Of a stretch of 64,000 bases of DNA, positions 35,526 to 42,003 are shown in pieces. Each line of letters begins with the position of its first letter. Within the stretch, counting starts at the first letter, position 1. Under the pieces are notes generated by a model. The model was given only the letters and a program-made list of their open reading frames with translations, made no database searches and was not told where the DNA came from. The stretch is from positions 310,001 through 374,000 of the forward strand of contig NZ_OCMF01000001.1 of assembly GCF_900215295.1 (NCBI RefSeq). The letters are read 5' to 3'. Source of the stretch: Salinimicrobium sediminis. Its GTDB lineage: Bacteria > Bacteroidota > Bacteroidia > Flavobacteriales > Flavobacteriaceae. The position numbers were made by a program, and so were the translations under genes.

Positions 35526-35951
35526 TTATTTCTTTACCGGAGAACCGTTAAGAATGACCTCGGTAGTGATCTCGGCGGTTTTCTCCAGCATTTTTGCAAC
35601 TGAACAGTACTTTTCCAGGGAAAGATCTACTGCTCTTTTTGCTTTGTTTTCAGGAATTTCCCCGTCAATAGTGATCTTTAGGTGAATTCTGGTAAAAACA
35701 TTGGGAACGGCACCATCAACTCTAAAACCTTCAACATCCATCTCCAGATTTGTCAACTCAAGTTGTTGTTTTTTGAGGATCATCACTATGTCAATTCCGC
35801 TGCAACCGGCAATTCCCATGAGTAGCAATTCCATTGGGCTTGCCCCCTGTGGGTTCGGTTCACTCTTGTTATCGAGGTGAATTACGTTGCCGCGCTCGTT
35901 CACGGTTTCAAAGTGATAGTTTTCGTTAAGCCTTTTAAGATGGATCTTCAT
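35526..35951 (-). CDS. OsmC/Ohr family protein
   Basis: A 141-residue OsmC-like protein with the family block NPQGASPMELLLMGIAGCSGIDI, which carries the first redox-active Cys. The second Cys lies in LEKYCSVAKML. Such proteins reduce organic hydroperoxides. Its start overlaps the hom stop by 4 bp, so it is co-translated with the methionine genes, which is unusual company for OsmC but may link sulphur metabolism with thiol stress. It may also have a metabolic thioesterase-like role. Confidence 0.85.
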   Translation of the reverse strand: MKIHLKRLNENYHFETVNERGNVIHLDNKSEPNPQGASPMELLLMGIAGCSGIDIVMILKKQQLELTNLEMDVEGFRVDGAVPNVFTRIHLKITIDGEIPENKAKRAVDLSLEKYCSVAKMLEKTAEITTEVILNGSPVKK

Positions 35952-37024
35952 GAGGGTAATTTTTCCGCTAATTTAATTAAATCTGTAAGAACTCCGCGTG
36001 CCGTCACTGCGGCTCCTGCCCCTGCTCCTTTAATGACTAAAGGCTGCTCTCCATAGGACTCGGTGAAGATCTCAAAAGAAGAGTCGGCATTTTGAAGGCT
36101 TCCAAGAGCCGAAGTTCTTTTTTCGGTCACCAGTTTTACATCCAGGATCCCGGTTTGCAGGTCCAACTCGCCTACATGTCTAATGACTTCATCCTGCTTC
36201 AGTTCTTTTTTTAGCTTCAGAAAAATTGGATCCAGATCCTTCTTTTTTTCGTGAAAATTCTTCAGCGTGGACTGCCCGTTAAGATGTGGCGGCACCAGAT
36301 CCTGAATCGTGATCTCTTCAAATTCCTTTTCCAGCCCCAGTTCCCGGCCAAGGATCAACAGCTTTCTGGCCACATCCTTTCCCGAAAGGTCCACACGCGG
36401 ATCGGGTTCTGTGAAACCTTTGACACCGGCTTCGGAAAGCACTTCGGAAAATGCTTTTTCTTCGGCACAATAGGTATTGAAAATATAGCTGAGGGAACCT
36501 GAAAATACCCCTCTTACCTTTGTTACCCTCTCATTGGAACGGTGGAAGCTCCGAAGGGTTTCTACAATTGGCAACCCTGCGCCTACGTTGGTTTCATAGA
36601 AAAAAAATTTATGATGCTCCCGAAGCTTTTTCCGCAGCTCCAGATAGAATTGAGAGGAGCGGGTATTTGCTACTTTGTTAGCAGCAACAATATGGAACCC
36701 GGATTCAATGAGGCTGAAATAGTGATCTACAAATTCCTCGCTGGCCGTGGCATCGACGGCAATCAGGTTTTCATAGTTCTGCTGTCGCACATACTCCAGA
36801 ATATCATTAAGTTTATATGGAAAACCGAACTTTTCCAGGTCGGTTTCCCACGACGGCTGCTGATTCTCCTTTTGGAAGAAGGCAATAGTGGAATTCGCAA
36901 TGACCGGAATATTGATTTCGAGGCCTTCCTTCTCCTGAAGAATCTTTCGTGCCTGCAGGACCTGGTGTACCAGTTTACTTCCTACGTTACCTGTCCCAAA
37001 CAGGACTAAGTTTATCTTTTTCAT
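35948..37024 (-). CDS. hom: homoserine dehydrogenase (stand-alone)
   Basis: A homoserine dehydrogenase of about 358 residues without ACT or aspartokinase domain. It reduces aspartate semialdehyde to homoserine. It has an N-terminal nucleotide-binding motif (VLFGTGNVGSK), the AVDATASEEFVDHYF block, an AANKVANT-type Lys motif and VRGVFSGSLSYIFNTY, with GFTEPDPRVDLSGKDVARKLLILGR following. I prefer the ATG at 37024 (MKKINLVLF) over one 5 codons upstream; both overlap the metX end (by 38 or 53 bp). The final steps to methionine use the metX and metY products encoded upstream. It is co-transcribed with metX and overlaps osmC by 4 bp. Confidence 0.93.
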   Translation of the reverse strand: MKKINLVLFGTGNVGSKLVHQVLQARKILQEKEGLEINIPVIANSTIAFFQKENQQPSWETDLEKFGFPYKLNDILEYVRQQNYENLIAVDATASEEFVDHYFSLIESGFHIVAANKVANTRSSQFYLELRKKLREHHKFFFYETNVGAGLPIVETLRSFHRSNERVTKVRGVFSGSLSYIFNTYCAEEKAFSEVLSEAGVKGFTEPDPRVDLSGKDVARKLLILGRELGLEKEFEEITIQDLVPPHLNGQSTLKNFHEKKKDLDPIFLKLKKELKQDEVIRHVGELDLQTGILDVKLVTEKRTSALGSLQNADSSFEIFTESYGEQPLVIKGAGAGAAVTARGVLTDLIKLAEKLPS

Positions 37025-37997
37025 GTTTAATAGTTTCAAATTTAAAAATGGGATTCAGGATATTTTCGAGTTGTTCGAACTCTATAAGAAAAGCGTCGTG
37101 TCCATGGATGGAGATGATCTCGGAGTAATTGATATTTTCCTTTACTTCAGAAAGCTGCCGGTATGTTTCCCGGATCTCCTGCGGAAAAAAGAACAAGTCA
37201 GAATCAATAGAGACCAGATGAATATTGCTTTCGATGTCGGTTGCCACAACTGAAGCTTCCGCAACACAACCTGAAATATCTATGGTAGTCAGCAGGTGAT
37301 TCATAAATTTATAAGCTTGCAATTCAAATCTGCTTTCAAGTTTTCTTCCATGATGCTCAAGCCAGTTTTCCACCTCAAAACGGCCATTGTCGCTATTTTT
37401 CTTTCTCCGGAATTTTTCTGAAAGGGAAAGCGGATGGCGATAGAAGGTCATGGCATGCATGCGGGCATCACGTAAAGGTTCAGCTGAATTTTCCAGGATC
37501 TGCTCCTGCACTTTACAATGCGCCAGCAGCCAATCTGTAGCTTTGAGATCTGTGGCTATAGGAATTAGATTTTTGATAAGGTGGGGCTTAAGGGCAGCAA
37601 GTTGCCAACCCAATGCTCCCCCTATAGATCCGCCAATAGCAGCAAAAAGGCTCCTGATCTTCAATTTAGCGAGTACTCTGGCATATATACGGGCAATGTC
37701 GGCAAGTGTGAAGTCCTTATAATTATAGAAAACGTCCTCTTTACCTCCTGCCCCATTTCCCGGAATATTCAAACATAGTACAGTGAAAATGTTGGTATTT
37801 ATGCATCTCCCTTCTCCCACCAGTTCTTTCCACCATCCACCTTCTCCTGAAACCTCAGCATTGCCGGTAAGGGCGTGATTTACCAGCACCACCGGGCCAT
37901 AGCCTAACTTCCTGCCAAAAACCTGGTAGTAAACCTTTACATCCTGCCGGTTTCCAGCAGAATTTTTAAAGTTGGGGATTAGAATTTCCTGTAACAT
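36987..37997 (-). CDS. metX: homoserine O-acetyltransferase-like (alpha/beta-hydrolase)
   Basis: A 336-residue alpha/beta-hydrolase that should acylate homoserine. The nucleophile is Ser124 (IGGSIGGALG) and the catalytic His is His300 (GHDAFL). NHALTGNAEVSGEGGWW and NIPGNGAGGKED are typical of the MetX family. It is somewhat shorter than the roughly 370-residue standard. It lies 53 bp after metY and overlaps hom. Together the three encode hom, acetyl-homoserine and direct sulphydrylation to homocysteine. Confidence 0.9.
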   Translation of the reverse strand: MLQEILIPNFKNSAGNRQDVKVYYQVFGRKLGYGPVVLVNHALTGNAEVSGEGGWWKELVGEGRCINTNIFTVLCLNIPGNGAGGKEDVFYNYKDFTLADIARIYARVLAKLKIRSLFAAIGGSIGGALGWQLAALKPHLIKNLIPIATDLKATDWLLAHCKVQEQILENSAEPLRDARMHAMTFYRHPLSLSEKFRRKKNSDNGRFEVENWLEHHGRKLESRFELQAYKFMNHLLTTIDISGCVAEASVVATDIESNIHLVSIDSDLFFFPQEIRETYRQLSEVKENINYSEIISIHGHDAFLIEFEQLENILNPIFKFETIKHEKDKLSPVWDR

Positions 37998-38050: not shown

Positions 38051-39355
38051 TCAGACCGTTTTTAGTTTCTTTCCTGAATTCACTTGTGCCAGCGCCTGTT
38101 CCAGATCGTTCTTTAGATCTTCAAGATCTTCCAACCCGACAGACAATCTTACCAGGTCCTTGGTTACTCCCGTAGATTCCTGTTGTTCATCACTGAGCTG
38201 CTGATGGGTAGTGCTGCCGGGATGGATGATAAGAGATTTTGTATCTCCAATGTTGGCAAGAAGAGAGAAGAGCTTGGTTTCATCTACCAGCACTTTTGCT
38301 GCTTCATAGCCGCCCTTCACACCAAAGGTCACCACGCCGCTTTGTCCTTTTGGAAGATATTTTTGCGCCAGGTTATAATACTCACTGCTCTCCAGCCCCG
38401 GATAGTTCACCCAGCTTACCTCCTCTTTTTGCTGCAGCCATTTGGCCAAAGCCAAAGCATTTTCGCTGTGCTTTTTGATCCTTATCTCCAGTGTTTCCAG
38501 TCCCTGCAGGATCTGAAAAGCATTGAACGGACTCAGCGCTGCACCAAGGTCCCGAAGGCCTTCGATCCGTATTTTTGCTATAAAGGCCGCTTCTTTTAAA
38601 ACATCATAATAGACGAGGCCGTGGTACCCCGGAGAAGGCTCAGTGAATTCAGGGAACTTGCCGTTGCTCCAGTCAAATTTACCGGCGTCGATGATCACAC
38701 CGCCGAGAGAGGTTCCGTTGCCTCCAATGTATTTGGTTAAGGAATGGATCACCAGGTCGGCACCATGGTTAATTGGTTTAACTAGAGCAGAAGTCGCTAC
38801 AGTATTATCAACTATAAAAGGAACTTTATGTTCTTTAGCGACTGCAGAGATCGCCTCCAGGTCAAGCACGTCAAGTTTTGGATTGCCTAAGGACTCTACA
38901 AAAACTGCACGGGTGTTTTCTTTCACAGCTTTAGAGAAATTTTCAGCGTTCTGCGGATCTACAAAGGTGGTGGTGATGCCAAGGCGTGGTAAAGTAACGC
39001 TAAGCAGGTTGTAAGTTCCGCCGTAGAGGCTGCTGGAAGCGACAATATGATCTCCGGCTTTGAGAAGGGTAAGCAAGGTAGTACTAATGGCTGCTGTGCC
39101 CGATGCTGTCACTACAGCCCCGATACCACCTTCCAGTGCTGCCAGTCGCTGTTCCAACACATCGTTCGTTGGATTATTGAGTCGGGTGTAAATGAATCCG
39201 GGTTCTGCAAGCGAAAAGAGGTTCGCTGCGTGATCTGAATCTTTAAAGACGTAAGAGGTGGTTTGATAAATAGGCACTGCTCTTGTTCCTCCGTTTGCTG
39301 TGACATTATGTCCTGCATGGAGCGCTTTGGTCGAGAAATTTTGTTGTGTACTCAT
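38051..39355 (-). CDS. metY: O-acetylhomoserine sulphydrylase (aminocarboxypropyltransferase)
   Basis: A 434-residue PLP enzyme of the Cys/Met metabolism family that converts O-acetylhomoserine plus sulphide to homocysteine. The PLP-binding Lys is Lys208 (VIHSLTKYIGG). Conserved blocks are ALHAGH at the N-terminus, FIYTRLNNPTNDVLE, SLYGGTYNLL and TRLS-type SLLANIGDTKSLIIHPGSTTHQQL. It is the first gene of the methionine operon and lies downstream of a 580-nt leader with two Met/Cys attenuators. A heptamer-repeat block forms most of the sequence just before its start. Confidence 0.96.
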   Translation of the reverse strand: MSTQQNFSTKALHAGHNVTANGGTRAVPIYQTTSYVFKDSDHAANLFSLAEPGFIYTRLNNPTNDVLEQRLAALEGGIGAVVTASGTAAISTTLLTLLKAGDHIVASSSLYGGTYNLLSVTLPRLGITTTFVDPQNAENFSKAVKENTRAVFVESLGNPKLDVLDLEAISAVAKEHKVPFIVDNTVATSALVKPINHGADLVIHSLTKYIGGNGTSLGGVIIDAGKFDWSNGKFPEFTEPSPGYHGLVYYDVLKEAAFIAKIRIEGLRDLGAALSPFNAFQILQGLETLEIRIKKHSENALALAKWLQQKEEVSWVNYPGLESSEYYNLAQKYLPKGQSGVVTFGVKGGYEAAKVLVDETKLFSLLANIGDTKSLIIHPGSTTHQQLSDEQQESTGVTKDLVRLSVGLEDLEDLKNDLEQALAQVNSGKKLKTV

Positions 39356-39565: not shown

Positions 39566-39601
39566 AAAAATCCCTTTAGCCGGCTTGCCAAAGGGATTTT
39601 T
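39566..39601 (-). terminator. metY attenuator 2 terminator
   Basis: AATCCCTTT (39569-39577) and AAAGGGATT (39590-39598) pair, extended by A/T flanks, around a loop with an AGCCGGCT core; a U tract follows on the minus strand. A downstream part of the leader, TTGCCAAA, is complementary over 8 nt (39637-39644 with 39585-39592) to the loop-proximal arm and can block it. Confidence 0.88.
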
Positions 39602-39622
39602 AGTAACTGAATATATAACTAA

Positions 39623-39718
39623 CTAGATCCTAATTTTTTGGCAATAGCGGGGTGGTGCGCACATCATGCACATCATGCAACACATCATCATCTTTGCTAC
39701 TGCTTTGTAATTTTTCAT
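39623..39718 (-). CDS. Met/Cys-rich leader peptide 2
   Basis: A 31-codon ORF (ATG at 39716-39718, TAG at 39623-39625). After MKNYKAVAK it has MMMCCMMCMMC, eleven consecutive Met/Cys codons (seven Met, four Cys), then APPRYCQKIRI. The C-terminal TATTGCCAAAA region forms the antiterminator. Stalling on Met or Cys shortage would leave it free. Confidence 0.88.
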   Translation of the reverse strand: MKNYKAVAKMMMCCMMCMMCAPPRYCQKIRI

Positions 39719-39740
39719 GTTTTTATTTTTTGACTCTCGG

Positions 39741-39784
39741 GTCCTCTGAATTTTATGAGGACTCAAAAATGCCATTTTTGGCAT
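39741..39784 (-). terminator. third hairpin between the two attenuators
   Basis: GTCCTC/GAGGAC (39741-39746, 39757-39762) followed by ATGCCA/TGGCAT (39769-39774, 39779-39784) around TTTT. On the minus strand the second stem is followed by UUUUU, so it looks like an intrinsic terminator. It belongs to the TCAAAAATGCCA palindrome family of this genome. Confidence 0.5.
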
Positions 39785-39811
39785 CTACTGTTATTCAAAA
39801 TTTACTCCAAC

Positions 39812-39842
39812 AAAAAAGCCGCTGCGGTGGCAGCGGCTTTTT
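39812..39842 (-). terminator. metY attenuator 1 terminator
   Basis: GCCGCTG and CAGCGGC (39818-39824, 39831-39837) flanked by A6 and T5 around a 6-nt loop. A leader segment CGCTGC (39879-39884 on +) repeats the arm, so the transcript can pair with it (6 nt) as an antiterminator. Confidence 0.88.
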
Positions 39843-39863
39843 GCGAATTTATCTTTTTCAGAT

Positions 39864-39932
39864 TCATGCAATAGGACGCGCTGCGGAAGTTTTCCACATC
39901 ATACACATCATATTACAAATCACCTGGTTCAT
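39864..39932 (-). CDS. Met/Cys-rich leader peptide 1
   Basis: A 22-codon ORF (ATG at 39930-39932, TGA at 39864-39866). It starts MNQVIC, has NMMCMMW, and ends KTSAARPIA. Four Met codons and two Cys codons cluster before the antiterminator segment. It is about 15-20 nt from the predicted transcription start. Confidence 0.85.
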   Translation of the reverse strand: MNQVICNMMCMMWKTSAARPIA

Positions 39933-39951
39933 TTCTTGTTTTGGTATGAAG

Positions 39952-39984
39952 CAAAGTTAACGACAGAAAAATTTAAGGAACAAA
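39952..39984 (-). promoter_or_regulatory. metY operon promoter (TTTG-N21-TAACTTTG)
   Basis: On the minus strand TTTG (complement of 39981-39984) is followed after 21 nt by TAACTTTG (complement of 39952-39959). Both match the Bacteroidota consensus. It predicts a start around 39945 and a 590-nt leader that contains both attenuators. Confidence 0.8.
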
Positions 39985-40474: not shown

Positions 40475-40601
40475 TTCCTCAATAAAATTCAGGGAAAAAT
40501 TTGACTGATTGCAACCCTTAAAAATGCTAAAGCAGTGAAAAACTCCTCTAGCGCTTCACGTCAAATTTCTCCTGAAATTAATCTTTTAAAAAAGACGAAG
40601 C

Positions 40602-41858
40602 ATGCCATATTTATTTACTTCAGAAAGTGTTTCTGAAGGCCACCCCGATAAAGTTGCAGACCAGATTAGCGATACCCTTTTAGATAATTTCCTTGCTTTT
40701 GATCCTGAATCCAAAGTTGCCTGCGAAACCCTGGTAACTACCGGACAGGTGGTGCTTGCCGGAGAGGTGAAGAGCGATACCTACCTCGATGTGCAAACCA
40801 TCGCCCGCGATGTGATCAACGACATTGGTTACACTAAAGGTGCATATAAATTCAGCGGCGATTCCTGCGGCGTGATCTCTTTGATACACGAACAATCCCA
40901 GGACATTAACCAGGGAGTGGATCGCGGCAATAAGGAAGAACAGGGTGCCGGCGACCAGGGAATGATGTTTGGTTATGCTACTAAGGAAACCGAAAATTAT
41001 ATGCCGCTGGCGCTGGATATTTCTCACAAGATCCTTATTGAGCTGGCAAAATTACGCCGCGAGAATAATGAAATCACATACCTGCGACCAGATTCAAAAA
41101 GCCAGGTAACTATAGAGTATAGCGACGACAATATTCCGCAGCGCATTGATTCTATCGTTGTTTCTACCCAGCACGACGAGTTCGACGAAGAAGACACACG
41201 AATGCTGGACAAGATCAAAAAAGACATTCTTGAGATCCTAATCCCCAGAGTGCAGGCACAGCTGCCGGAATATGTTCAAAAGTTGTTCAACGACAAGATA
41301 AAATATCATATCAACCCAACAGGAAAGTTTGTGATTGGCGGACCTCACGGGGATACCGGCCTTACGGGAAGAAAGATCATCGTGGATACCTACGGTGGAA
41401 AAGGAGCCCATGGTGGAGGTGCGTTTTCGGGAAAAGATCCGAGTAAGGTGGACAGATCGGCTGCCTATGCGGCCAGACATATTGCCAAAAATCTTGTGGC
41501 TGCAGGAGTGGCTGATGAAGTATTGATCCAGGTTTCCTATGCAATTGGAGTAGTGGAACCTACTTCCCTGCTCGTGGAAACTTACGGCACCAAAAAAGTA
41601 GATCTAAGCCACGGCGAGATTGCAAAAAAAGTATTGAAAATCTTTGACATGAGACCCGCAGCCATTGAAGAAAGACTTGGCTTGAGAAATCCTATCTATC
41701 GTGAAACTTCGGCTTATGGTCACTTTGGGAAGGAGCCCCGTACCGAGAGAAAAGTCTTTAAAAGTCCTTATAACGGAGAAAAAACTGTAGAGGTGAACTT
41801 GTTCACCTGGGAGGAGATCAACAAAGTGGAAGAGATTAAGAAAGAATTTGAAATTTAG
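40602..41858 (+). CDS. metK: S-adenosylmethionine synthetase
   Basis: A 418-residue methionine adenosyltransferase forming SAM from methionine and ATP. Typical segments are [20 protein letters not shown] (N-terminal domain), the ATP-binding [24 protein letters not shown] and the flexible-loop [20 protein letters not shown]. It is divergent from the metY operon. No leader peptide was found in front of it. A strong bidirectional terminator follows 90 bp after the stop, beyond a heptamer block. Confidence 0.98.
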
Positions 41859-41869
41859 GTACTGGTAGT

Positions 41870-41918
41870 GAGTATTGAGTAATGAGTATTGAGTATTGAG
41901 TATTGAATATTGAGTATT
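41870..41918. repeat. seven GAGTATT heptamers after metK
   Basis: GAGTATT, GAGTAAT, three GAGTATT, GAATATT, GAGTATT in one register, directly after the metK stop. Highest purity of the heptamer blocks. Confidence 0.9.
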
Positions 41919-41944
41919 TACTACTATGTATTTAAGAAGTACAA

Positions 41945-41978
41945 ATAAAAAACCCGGATTTATTCCGGGTTTTTTATT
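41945..41978. terminator. bidirectional terminator between metK and PH-domain gene
   Basis: An A-rich arm with CCCGGA, a TTTAT-type loop, and TCCGGG followed by T6. The A and T flanks pair too. Serves both converging genes. Confidence 0.85.
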
Positions 41979-42003
41979 GTCTCACGGATTTTATAAGCAC
42001 CGG

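Follow-up and report, generated by a model that had tools for sequence, protein, structure and literature searches.

The question raised by this locus is what two short open reading frames (ORFs) rich in Met and Cys codons, each followed by an intrinsic terminator, are doing between a promoter and metY. Met genes are generally described as being controlled by SAM riboswitches, T-boxes or repressors, and attenuation at a run of Met codons would be an odd arrangement, because Met is also the starting residue. Our analysis of the 64,000-nt stretch of DNA (hereafter the window) and of related genomes argues that the leader comprises two ribosome-mediated transcription attenuators placed in series behind one promoter, which would control metY-metX-hom. 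From the sequence data we assign this reading a probability of roughly 0.87.

The leader is ∼600 nt long and is located on the minus strand between the divergent metK gene (40602–41858, plus strand) and metY. The order on the minus strand is promoter, ORF 1, terminator 1, ORF 2, terminator 2 and metY-metX-hom, and the elements of this series listed next are all on that strand. The promoter, TTTG-N21-TAACTTTG, was read directly at 39952–39984 (TTTG at 39981–39984, TAACTTTG at 39952–39959) and is of the Bacteroidetes type. Leader ORF 1 (MNQVICNMMCMMWKTSAARPIA, 39864–39932), taken from the ORF list and comparison with relatives, carries the run NMMCMMW. Segment 1 of module 1 (CAGGT..TGTAATA.GATGTGT, 39903–39926) overlaps the first Met codons of this run, and the antiterminator strand GCAGCG, the core of segment 2 (39879–39884), begins 15 nt downstream of the first nucleotide of the final Met codon. 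Intrinsic terminator 1 (39812–39842) is composed of segment 3 (CGCTGC, 39830–39835), segment 4 (GCAGCGGC) and a U-tract. Leader ORF 2 (MKNYKAVAKMMMCCMMCMMCAPPRYCQKIRI, 39623–39718) carries the run MMMCCMMCMMC; its stop is at 39623, and the ATG at 39718 is our choice of the likeliest start, the longest form being 39623–39784 with an upstream ATG at 39784. Segment 1 of module 2 (GCAGTAGC, 39696–39703) lies upstream of the Met/Cys run and has a pairing partner, GCTATTGC, at 39641–39648, with weaker support than in module 1. The antiterminator strand of module 2, TTGCCAAA (39637–39644), has an 8-nt partner, TTTGGCAA (39585–39592), in intrinsic terminator 2 (39566–39601), which was assigned from its fold and from comparison with relatives. 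The downstream genes are metY, coding for O-acetylhomoserine sulfhydrylase (38051–39355; TIGR01326, 658.9 bits, above cut-off), a metX-like acyltransferase gene (36987–37997; MetX is the best NCBIfam match, below its cut-off) and a homoserine dehydrogenase-like gene (hom) that overlaps metX (35948–37039; NCBIfam matches below cut-off). In the window, terminators 1 and 2 fold at −22.2 kcal/mol (z −5.5) and −20.1 kcal/mol (z −4.8), and the antiterminator stretches of modules 1 and 2 at −16.3 kcal/mol (z −3.2) and −15.4 kcal/mol (z −2.4; 3 of 200 shuffles equally good). An earlier note on this DNA had listed the promoter, both leader ORFs and both terminators, with complementarities of 6 nt in module 1 and 8 nt in module 2. 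All of these elements are real and their sequences and coordinates are correct on direct reading, but that account did not include a 1:2 hairpin or the further copies that precede other sulphur genes, both of which are described below. On the far side of metK, the inverted-repeat-like region 41902–41996 gives many sub-threshold Rfam matches on both strands and is perhaps a bidirectional terminator between convergent genes.

We propose that the leader works as follows. With an ample supply of charged Met-tRNA, and probably also of charged Cys-tRNA, a ribosome would translate the Met/Cys codons as far as the leader stop codon and cover segment 2, so that terminator 3:4 would form and RNA polymerase would leave. 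A ribosome stalled on the Met/Cys run would leave segment 2 free just ahead, in module 1 ∼15 nt past the last Met codon; free segment 2 would pair with segment 3, and the polymerase would read on. An untranslated module 1 would fold 1:2 and terminate; an untranslated module 2 may or may not do the same. Since metY would be reached only if the polymerase passes both modules, an AND-like logic would follow from the series placement. Stalling, the response to Met and Cys, transcription-translation coupling and the multiplication of the two steps are what we infer from the layout. In agreement with this scheme, the locus has a short predicted ORF with a run of codons for the product of the operon, an intrinsic terminator between the leader ORF and the first gene, and an antiterminator that is mutually exclusive with the terminator and shows compensatory change, with the reservation that its count of double-changed pairs alone does not exceed that of shuffles. 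Against an attenuator of this kind it can be said that a shortage of Met would be expected to slow translation initiation at the AUG of the leader as well, and that segment 1 of module 2 is placed before the run, where stalling would not obviously free segment 2.

The conservation of the leader was analyzed with a detector for a Met/Cys-rich ORF ending close to an intrinsic terminator, which was applied to the upstream DNA (900 nt at most) of 103 distinct metY loci. By this detector, 35 loci have two modules, 20 have a single one and the other 48 have none. A single pass over the reverse strand returned one module at 1 of the 103 loci, and one Markov shuffle per locus returned none at any of the 103, so the tandem and single counts at metY exceed chance. 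These unrevised counts are underestimates, as a second module is clear in L087 and probable in L080 (both counted as single and probably tandem) and, at L109, a second terminator follows a weaker Met/Cys ORF. Among named metY genes, those most similar to the window's come from Salinimicrobium (Flavobacteriaceae). A metY match is present in 11 of 12 same-genus genomes, window genome included; 10 of these loci, again counting the window, have sufficient upstream DNA, and each of them carries both modules. At the eleventh locus (L009) the contig breaks off, and two such leaders lie close to the end of another contig of this genome. Further tandem loci were found in Gillisia, Christiangramia, Salegentibacter, Flavobacterium and Lutibacter. 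Of the observations that would refute the attenuator reading according to the earlier note, the two that concern sequence (relatives keeping metY with no Met/Cys ORF or terminator, and random drift in the leader) did not hold up: the same-genus loci retain both modules, and terminator and antiterminator change together (see below). The DNA pattern ATGATGTGYATGATGTG was tried and discarded: it matches 5 of 395 genomes of the class, and the matches in the four genomes other than this one are located inside longer coding frames (V-Y/H-D-V stretches) and are not leaders.

The comparison also indicates which level of the leader is conserved. Cys is written with both TGT and TGC (58 and 19 codons in module 1, 70 and 62 in module 2), which argues that the Met/Cys run is kept as amino acids. 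In the tail of module 2, on the other hand, it is the RNA and not the peptide that is conserved, because a TTGCCA-like element, located in 44 loci, is in one frame in 36, in another frame in four (RYCQK versus AIAKK; L039, L040, L005 and the doubtful L096) and 3′ of the stop codon in the remaining four.

Segment 2, which follows the Met/Cys run, is a near copy of part of the terminator 3′ arm, and its distance to the terminator is mostly 35–49 nt. Over 90 modules, the duplex of segment 2 with the terminator 5′ arm has a mean energy of −13.2 kcal/mol, compared with −9.2 kcal/mol for swapped arms and −8.0 kcal/mol for shuffled sequences; its rank against its own shuffles is ≤0.05 in 55 modules, and against swapped arms ≤0.1 in 39. 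The strands and their partners differ between genera and change in parallel. In module 1, the pair is GCAGCG/CGCTGC in Salinimicrobium, GCAGAGG/CCTCTGC in Flavobacterium and GCAAGGGC/GCCCTTGC in L021, and in module 2 the pairs TTGCCAAA/TTTGGCAA, GCTATTACC/GGTAATAGC and TCCAAAAG/CTTTTGGA were observed. For the covariation analysis, near-identical rows were removed from the alignments of module 1 (43 to 40) and module 2 (47 to 45), followed by the doubtful L107, L113 and L030 from the former and L109 from the latter, leaving 37 and 44 sequences. Paired cells account for 99.7% in terminator 1, 98.2% in terminator 2, 91.4% in antiterminator 1 and 81.9% in antiterminator 2, and the double-changed cells number 32, 71, 15 and 16, respectively, against 9.8, 25.4, 5.4 and 5.6 in shuffles that ignore the relatedness of the sequences. 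Double-changed cells are thus in excess, but counted by pairs, antiterminator positions with double changes are no more numerous than in shuffles, of which 102 out of 500 reach the observed number in module 1 and 310 out of 500 in module 2. A control in which the module 2 antiterminator was slid by −2 gave 24 double-changed cells, but with just 31.8% of cells paired.

The spacing between the codon run and segment 2 is nearly fixed in first modules, with 15 nt from the last Met codon in 29 of 35 and 14–16 nt in all 35, which is approximately what a ribosome stalled at the last Met codon would leave free. It is more scattered in second modules, where 22 nt is commonest. The RNA downstream of a stalled ribosome was also folded. 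When the terminator 3′ arm is omitted, segment 3 (the 5′ arm) pairs back upstream in 88 of 90 modules, but the minimum free energy structure of the full RNA contains the terminator in 87 of 90, on average 9.5 kcal/mol better than the antiterminator. Antitermination would therefore have to be kinetic, with the antiterminator winning by timing.

Predicted duplexes allow a hairpin that overlaps the Met codons, with clearer support in module 1 than in module 2. In the window, segment 1 of module 1 pairs with the segment 2 region, including TATTGCA (39867–39873) and ATCTG (39859–39863), at −21.8 kcal/mol. Mean 1:2 duplex energies in module 1 are −16.1 kcal/mol for own, −12.3 for swapped and −10.6 for shuffled segments, and in module 2 they are −11.0, −10.0 and −8.8 kcal/mol; with longer segments the rank is ≤0.05 in 21 of 43 first and 11 of 46 second modules (L051, the segment of which is cut by a contig end, is left out of this test). 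For the segment 2 core alone, upstream pairing ranks ≤0.05 against shuffles in 1 of 35 first and 8 of 35 second modules. Before the terminator 3′ arm is made, untranslated RNA holds the core in upstream pairing in 21 of 35 first modules but in only 14 of 35 second ones, whereas the core is paired with segment 3 in 13 and 25, respectively. A 1:2 hairpin would explain the conserved TGYAAT 5′ and TATTGCAT 3′ of the Met run in module 1. The idea that there is no 1:2 hairpin and that untranslated leaders are read through was rejected for module 1 by these pairing tests.

The placement of the two modules in series was examined by searching the 35 tandem loci for TTG-N19..24-TAnnTTTG. The pattern was found upstream of module 1 in 26 loci, 79–95 nt before the stop of ORF 1; among the nine others, the 900-nt limit truncates L008, and in L052 the −7 box occurs by itself. 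It was found at none of the 35 loci between terminator 1 and the last 60 nt of ORF 2, and at none after terminator 2. The absence of a second promoter of the searched type from these positions argues that the modules are in series, in line with the earlier proposal that both sites are met in sequence behind one promoter.

The relationship of the leader to SAM riboswitches was analyzed with Rfam. As the earlier note had advised, the metY leader of the window was searched; no family reaches its gathering score and the SAM aptamers (RF00162, RF01726) are absent. Among the 48 module-free metY loci, 42 have a SAM riboswitch directly upstream on the metY strand (SAM-I in 35, SAM-II in seven). The exceptions are L093, L100, L117, L027, for which the nearest SAM riboswitch is a SAM-II ∼1.3 kb upstream, and L076 and L009, both cut by contig ends. 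None of the 33 module-bearing loci scanned (the window and 32 others, out of 55) has a SAM riboswitch upstream of metY on its strand. The suggestion that the attenuators are an alternative to SAM riboswitches is borne out by this distribution. On a quick metY protein tree, 21 changes suffice for the five leader states, against a shuffled mean of 53.4, and the well-supported branches require a minimum of seven changes for the tandem state, a count that includes tandem/single switches and hence detector misses, and of three for SAM-I; on such a tree, transfer of metY together with its leader is inseparable from leader exchange. In L021, L024, L030 and L115, a SAM-I riboswitch lies immediately downstream of a metY with a peptide leader, so that neighboring genes would be under different sensors. 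In the window itself, a SAM-II riboswitch precedes metK (40485–40540, plus strand, 56.5 bits, above gathering). One intergenic region thus seems to hold a SAM sensor for the user of Met (metK) and a codon-based sensor for its maker (metY). The genome has one SAM-I match, located upstream of an ORF that we take to be MetH-like.

Covariance models of both modules were also searched over whole genomes. In 149 genomes of the family, the module 1 model gave 15 strong matches (E ≤ 6.2e-7), 13 of which precede metY, the other two being before metX (L124) and near a contig end (L121). The module 2 model gave nine (E ≤ 4.9e-5), namely the window, seven before metY and one near a contig end. Weaker matches were rejected as metY leaders, as metY was found at none of eight checked for module 1 (3.6e-5 and weaker) and none of four for module 2 (1.6e-4 and weaker); in view of this, the module 1 tally at E ≤ 0.01 (97 of 149 genomes) was not used. 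The search of 296 genomes from the phylum found module 1 matches at E ≤ 5e-6 in 15, comprising this genome and 14 of a single genus, Flavobacterium; four of these 14 have a second match. The surroundings were inspected in five of the 14. In L192 (∼868–1133) and L193 (∼881–1041), a leader with MMLFVCNMCCMMW and a terminator precede an operon, which in L192 matches serine acetyltransferase EpsC, cysteine synthase, tetrapyrrole methylase, flavodoxin/FAD reductase, assimilatory sulphite reductase hemoprotein and the siroheme synthase N-terminal domain. In L194 (reverse strand, ∼1430–1636), a leader of the module 1 type with MKFTVNNMMSCKMPEYSAEILL and a terminator precede a gene for a TonB-dependent receptor, possibly for a sulphur compound, which sits between this element and module 2 of metY. 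Another match in L194 precedes metX; its ORF contains little Met and Cys, and the module may have decayed. In L191, a leader with MNFTMNNMSMMMW precedes an apparently broken gene for a Cys/Met PLP-dependent enzyme. A search of the present genome, run without a positive control, gave no match for sulphite reductase. The copies before sulphur genes point to a candidate sulphur-amino-acid regulon. The broadest form of this idea, in which Met/Cys-codon attenuators form an AND-like series gate at metY, have been copied to cys genes and a TonB receptor gene and repeatedly swap with SAM riboswitches, is tentative, and we give it somewhat less than an even chance.

Whether Cys is sensed together with Met bears on how the attenuators are read. 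It could be that only Met is sensed and that the Cys codons are tolerated or tune the rate, both residues being rare. The product of metY is homocysteine, the Met precursor, and some runs contain little Cys (MSMMMW and MAEMMM in L021 and L024); in L016 the runs MRMMMW and MMMMHMMMM have none and its Cys falls outside the run. Because the runs of L016 and L110 are poor in Cys or lack it, sensing of Cys is not a universal property. Across the 35 tandem loci, however, Cys is the more strongly enriched residue, with 9.6% in module 1 and 13.0% in module 2 against a background of 0.49% (ORFs of at least 250 aa in the window, 16,359 residues), compared with 20.8% and 24.7% against 2.01% for Met, values that are partly built in, as the detector selects for both residues. 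Within their last 22 residues, 34 of the 35 first modules have at least one Cys and 30 at least two; within the last 31 residues of the second modules, all 35 have one or more and 33 have two or more. The copy before the Cys-synthesis operon of two Flavobacterium genomes argues in the same direction. We therefore regard sensing of Met alone as unlikely, although it is an explanation of some weight.

The remaining alternatives dispense with ribosome-mediated attenuation. The leader could be an unrecognised riboswitch, for SAM or another ligand, that happens to contain ORFs; it occupies the position of a SAM riboswitch at the same gene and is rich in hairpins. However, the scanned module-bearing leaders have no Rfam match at gathering score, and what is conserved in them is mainly Met/Cys codons and short complementary strands with varying letters, which makes such a riboswitch very improbable. 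A shade less probable still are two further explanations. In one, it is the peptides themselves that matter, being small, Met/Cys-rich and metal- or redox-binding, and the terminators that follow are ordinary ones. Met/Cys motifs generally resemble copper-binding sequences, and the peptide core is kept within the genus. This does not fit well with the checked strong matches lying, save at contig ends, before metY or metX, while additional copies precede sulphur genes and a gene for a TonB receptor, with the frame changes in the module 2 tail and the RNA element lying after the stop codon, or with the covariation of antiterminator and terminator and the constant codon-to-segment spacing in module 1. 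In the other, the terminators release a trans-acting small RNA or insulate metY from the metK side, and metY has another promoter; the presence of two strong terminators in a long leader and of a divergent metK with a SAM-II riboswitch of its own would be in keeping with this. Yet transcripts from the metY promoter run into both terminators, which are on the same strand, and at none of the 35 tandem loci was a promoter of the searched type located beyond them, so they would silence metY unless overcome. Ribosome-mediated attenuation in two serial steps is thus the reading we retain.

Leader-peptide attenuation is a classic mechanism. In the trp, his, phe and thr leaders of Proteobacteria, a short ORF with codons for the product is combined with hairpins 1:2, 2:3 and 3:4 and a terminator before the operon. 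The metY leader shares with them the short ORF, the product codons, the alternative hairpins 2:3 and 3:4, possibly the 1:2 hairpin, and the terminator. It differs in its Met and Cys codons, its two modules in series and its Bacteroidota host, and also in that the terminator is predicted to be much stronger than the antiterminator and that 1:2 pairing is uncertain in module 2. SAM-I and SAM-II riboswitches sense SAM directly, without translation; in relatives they occupy the same position at the same gene as the attenuators and, as described above, are absent upstream of metY from the scanned module-bearing loci. A widespread, covarying system of this type would offer a clean case of how a sensor of tRNA charging replaces a metabolite sensor at one gene. 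It also bears on the gain of two serial attenuators over one and on transcription-translation coupling in Bacteroidota, and the natural relatives with a single module or a SAM riboswitch are ready comparisons. Among the literature matches listed, which mostly exclude subscription papers, no description of Met or Met/Cys leader-peptide attenuation before metY was found; as far as titles, the beginnings of abstracts and passages show, those matches describe neither leaders specific for Met/Cys nor modules in series at metY nor an exchange of such leaders with SAM riboswitches. Swaps between a riboswitch or T-box and a leader peptide at one gene have been noted before, according to a passage of PMC2965389. 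In Flavobacterium psychrophilum, leader peptides were suspected before amino-acid synthesis operons (PMC9723704, main text), and pheA and hisG are among the conserved 5′ elements; the word methionine is absent from that text, and metY may be among its 64 elements. The metY leader and those elements would have in common that they are flavobacterial leader peptides before amino-acid synthesis operons. Cys leader peptides, with runs of Cys codons before Cys operons, are described for Actinobacteria in PMC1262725, which reports no conserved terminator hairpins for those of Mycobacterium; by that account, the metY leader differs in having intrinsic terminators, covarying antiterminators and mostly Met codons. 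Finally, tandem attenuators with two short ORFs in one leader are reported to control transcription of mgtCBR in Salmonella (PMC3641672). The genes controlled there are others, and in the metY leader both modules are of the Met/Cys-codon kind.
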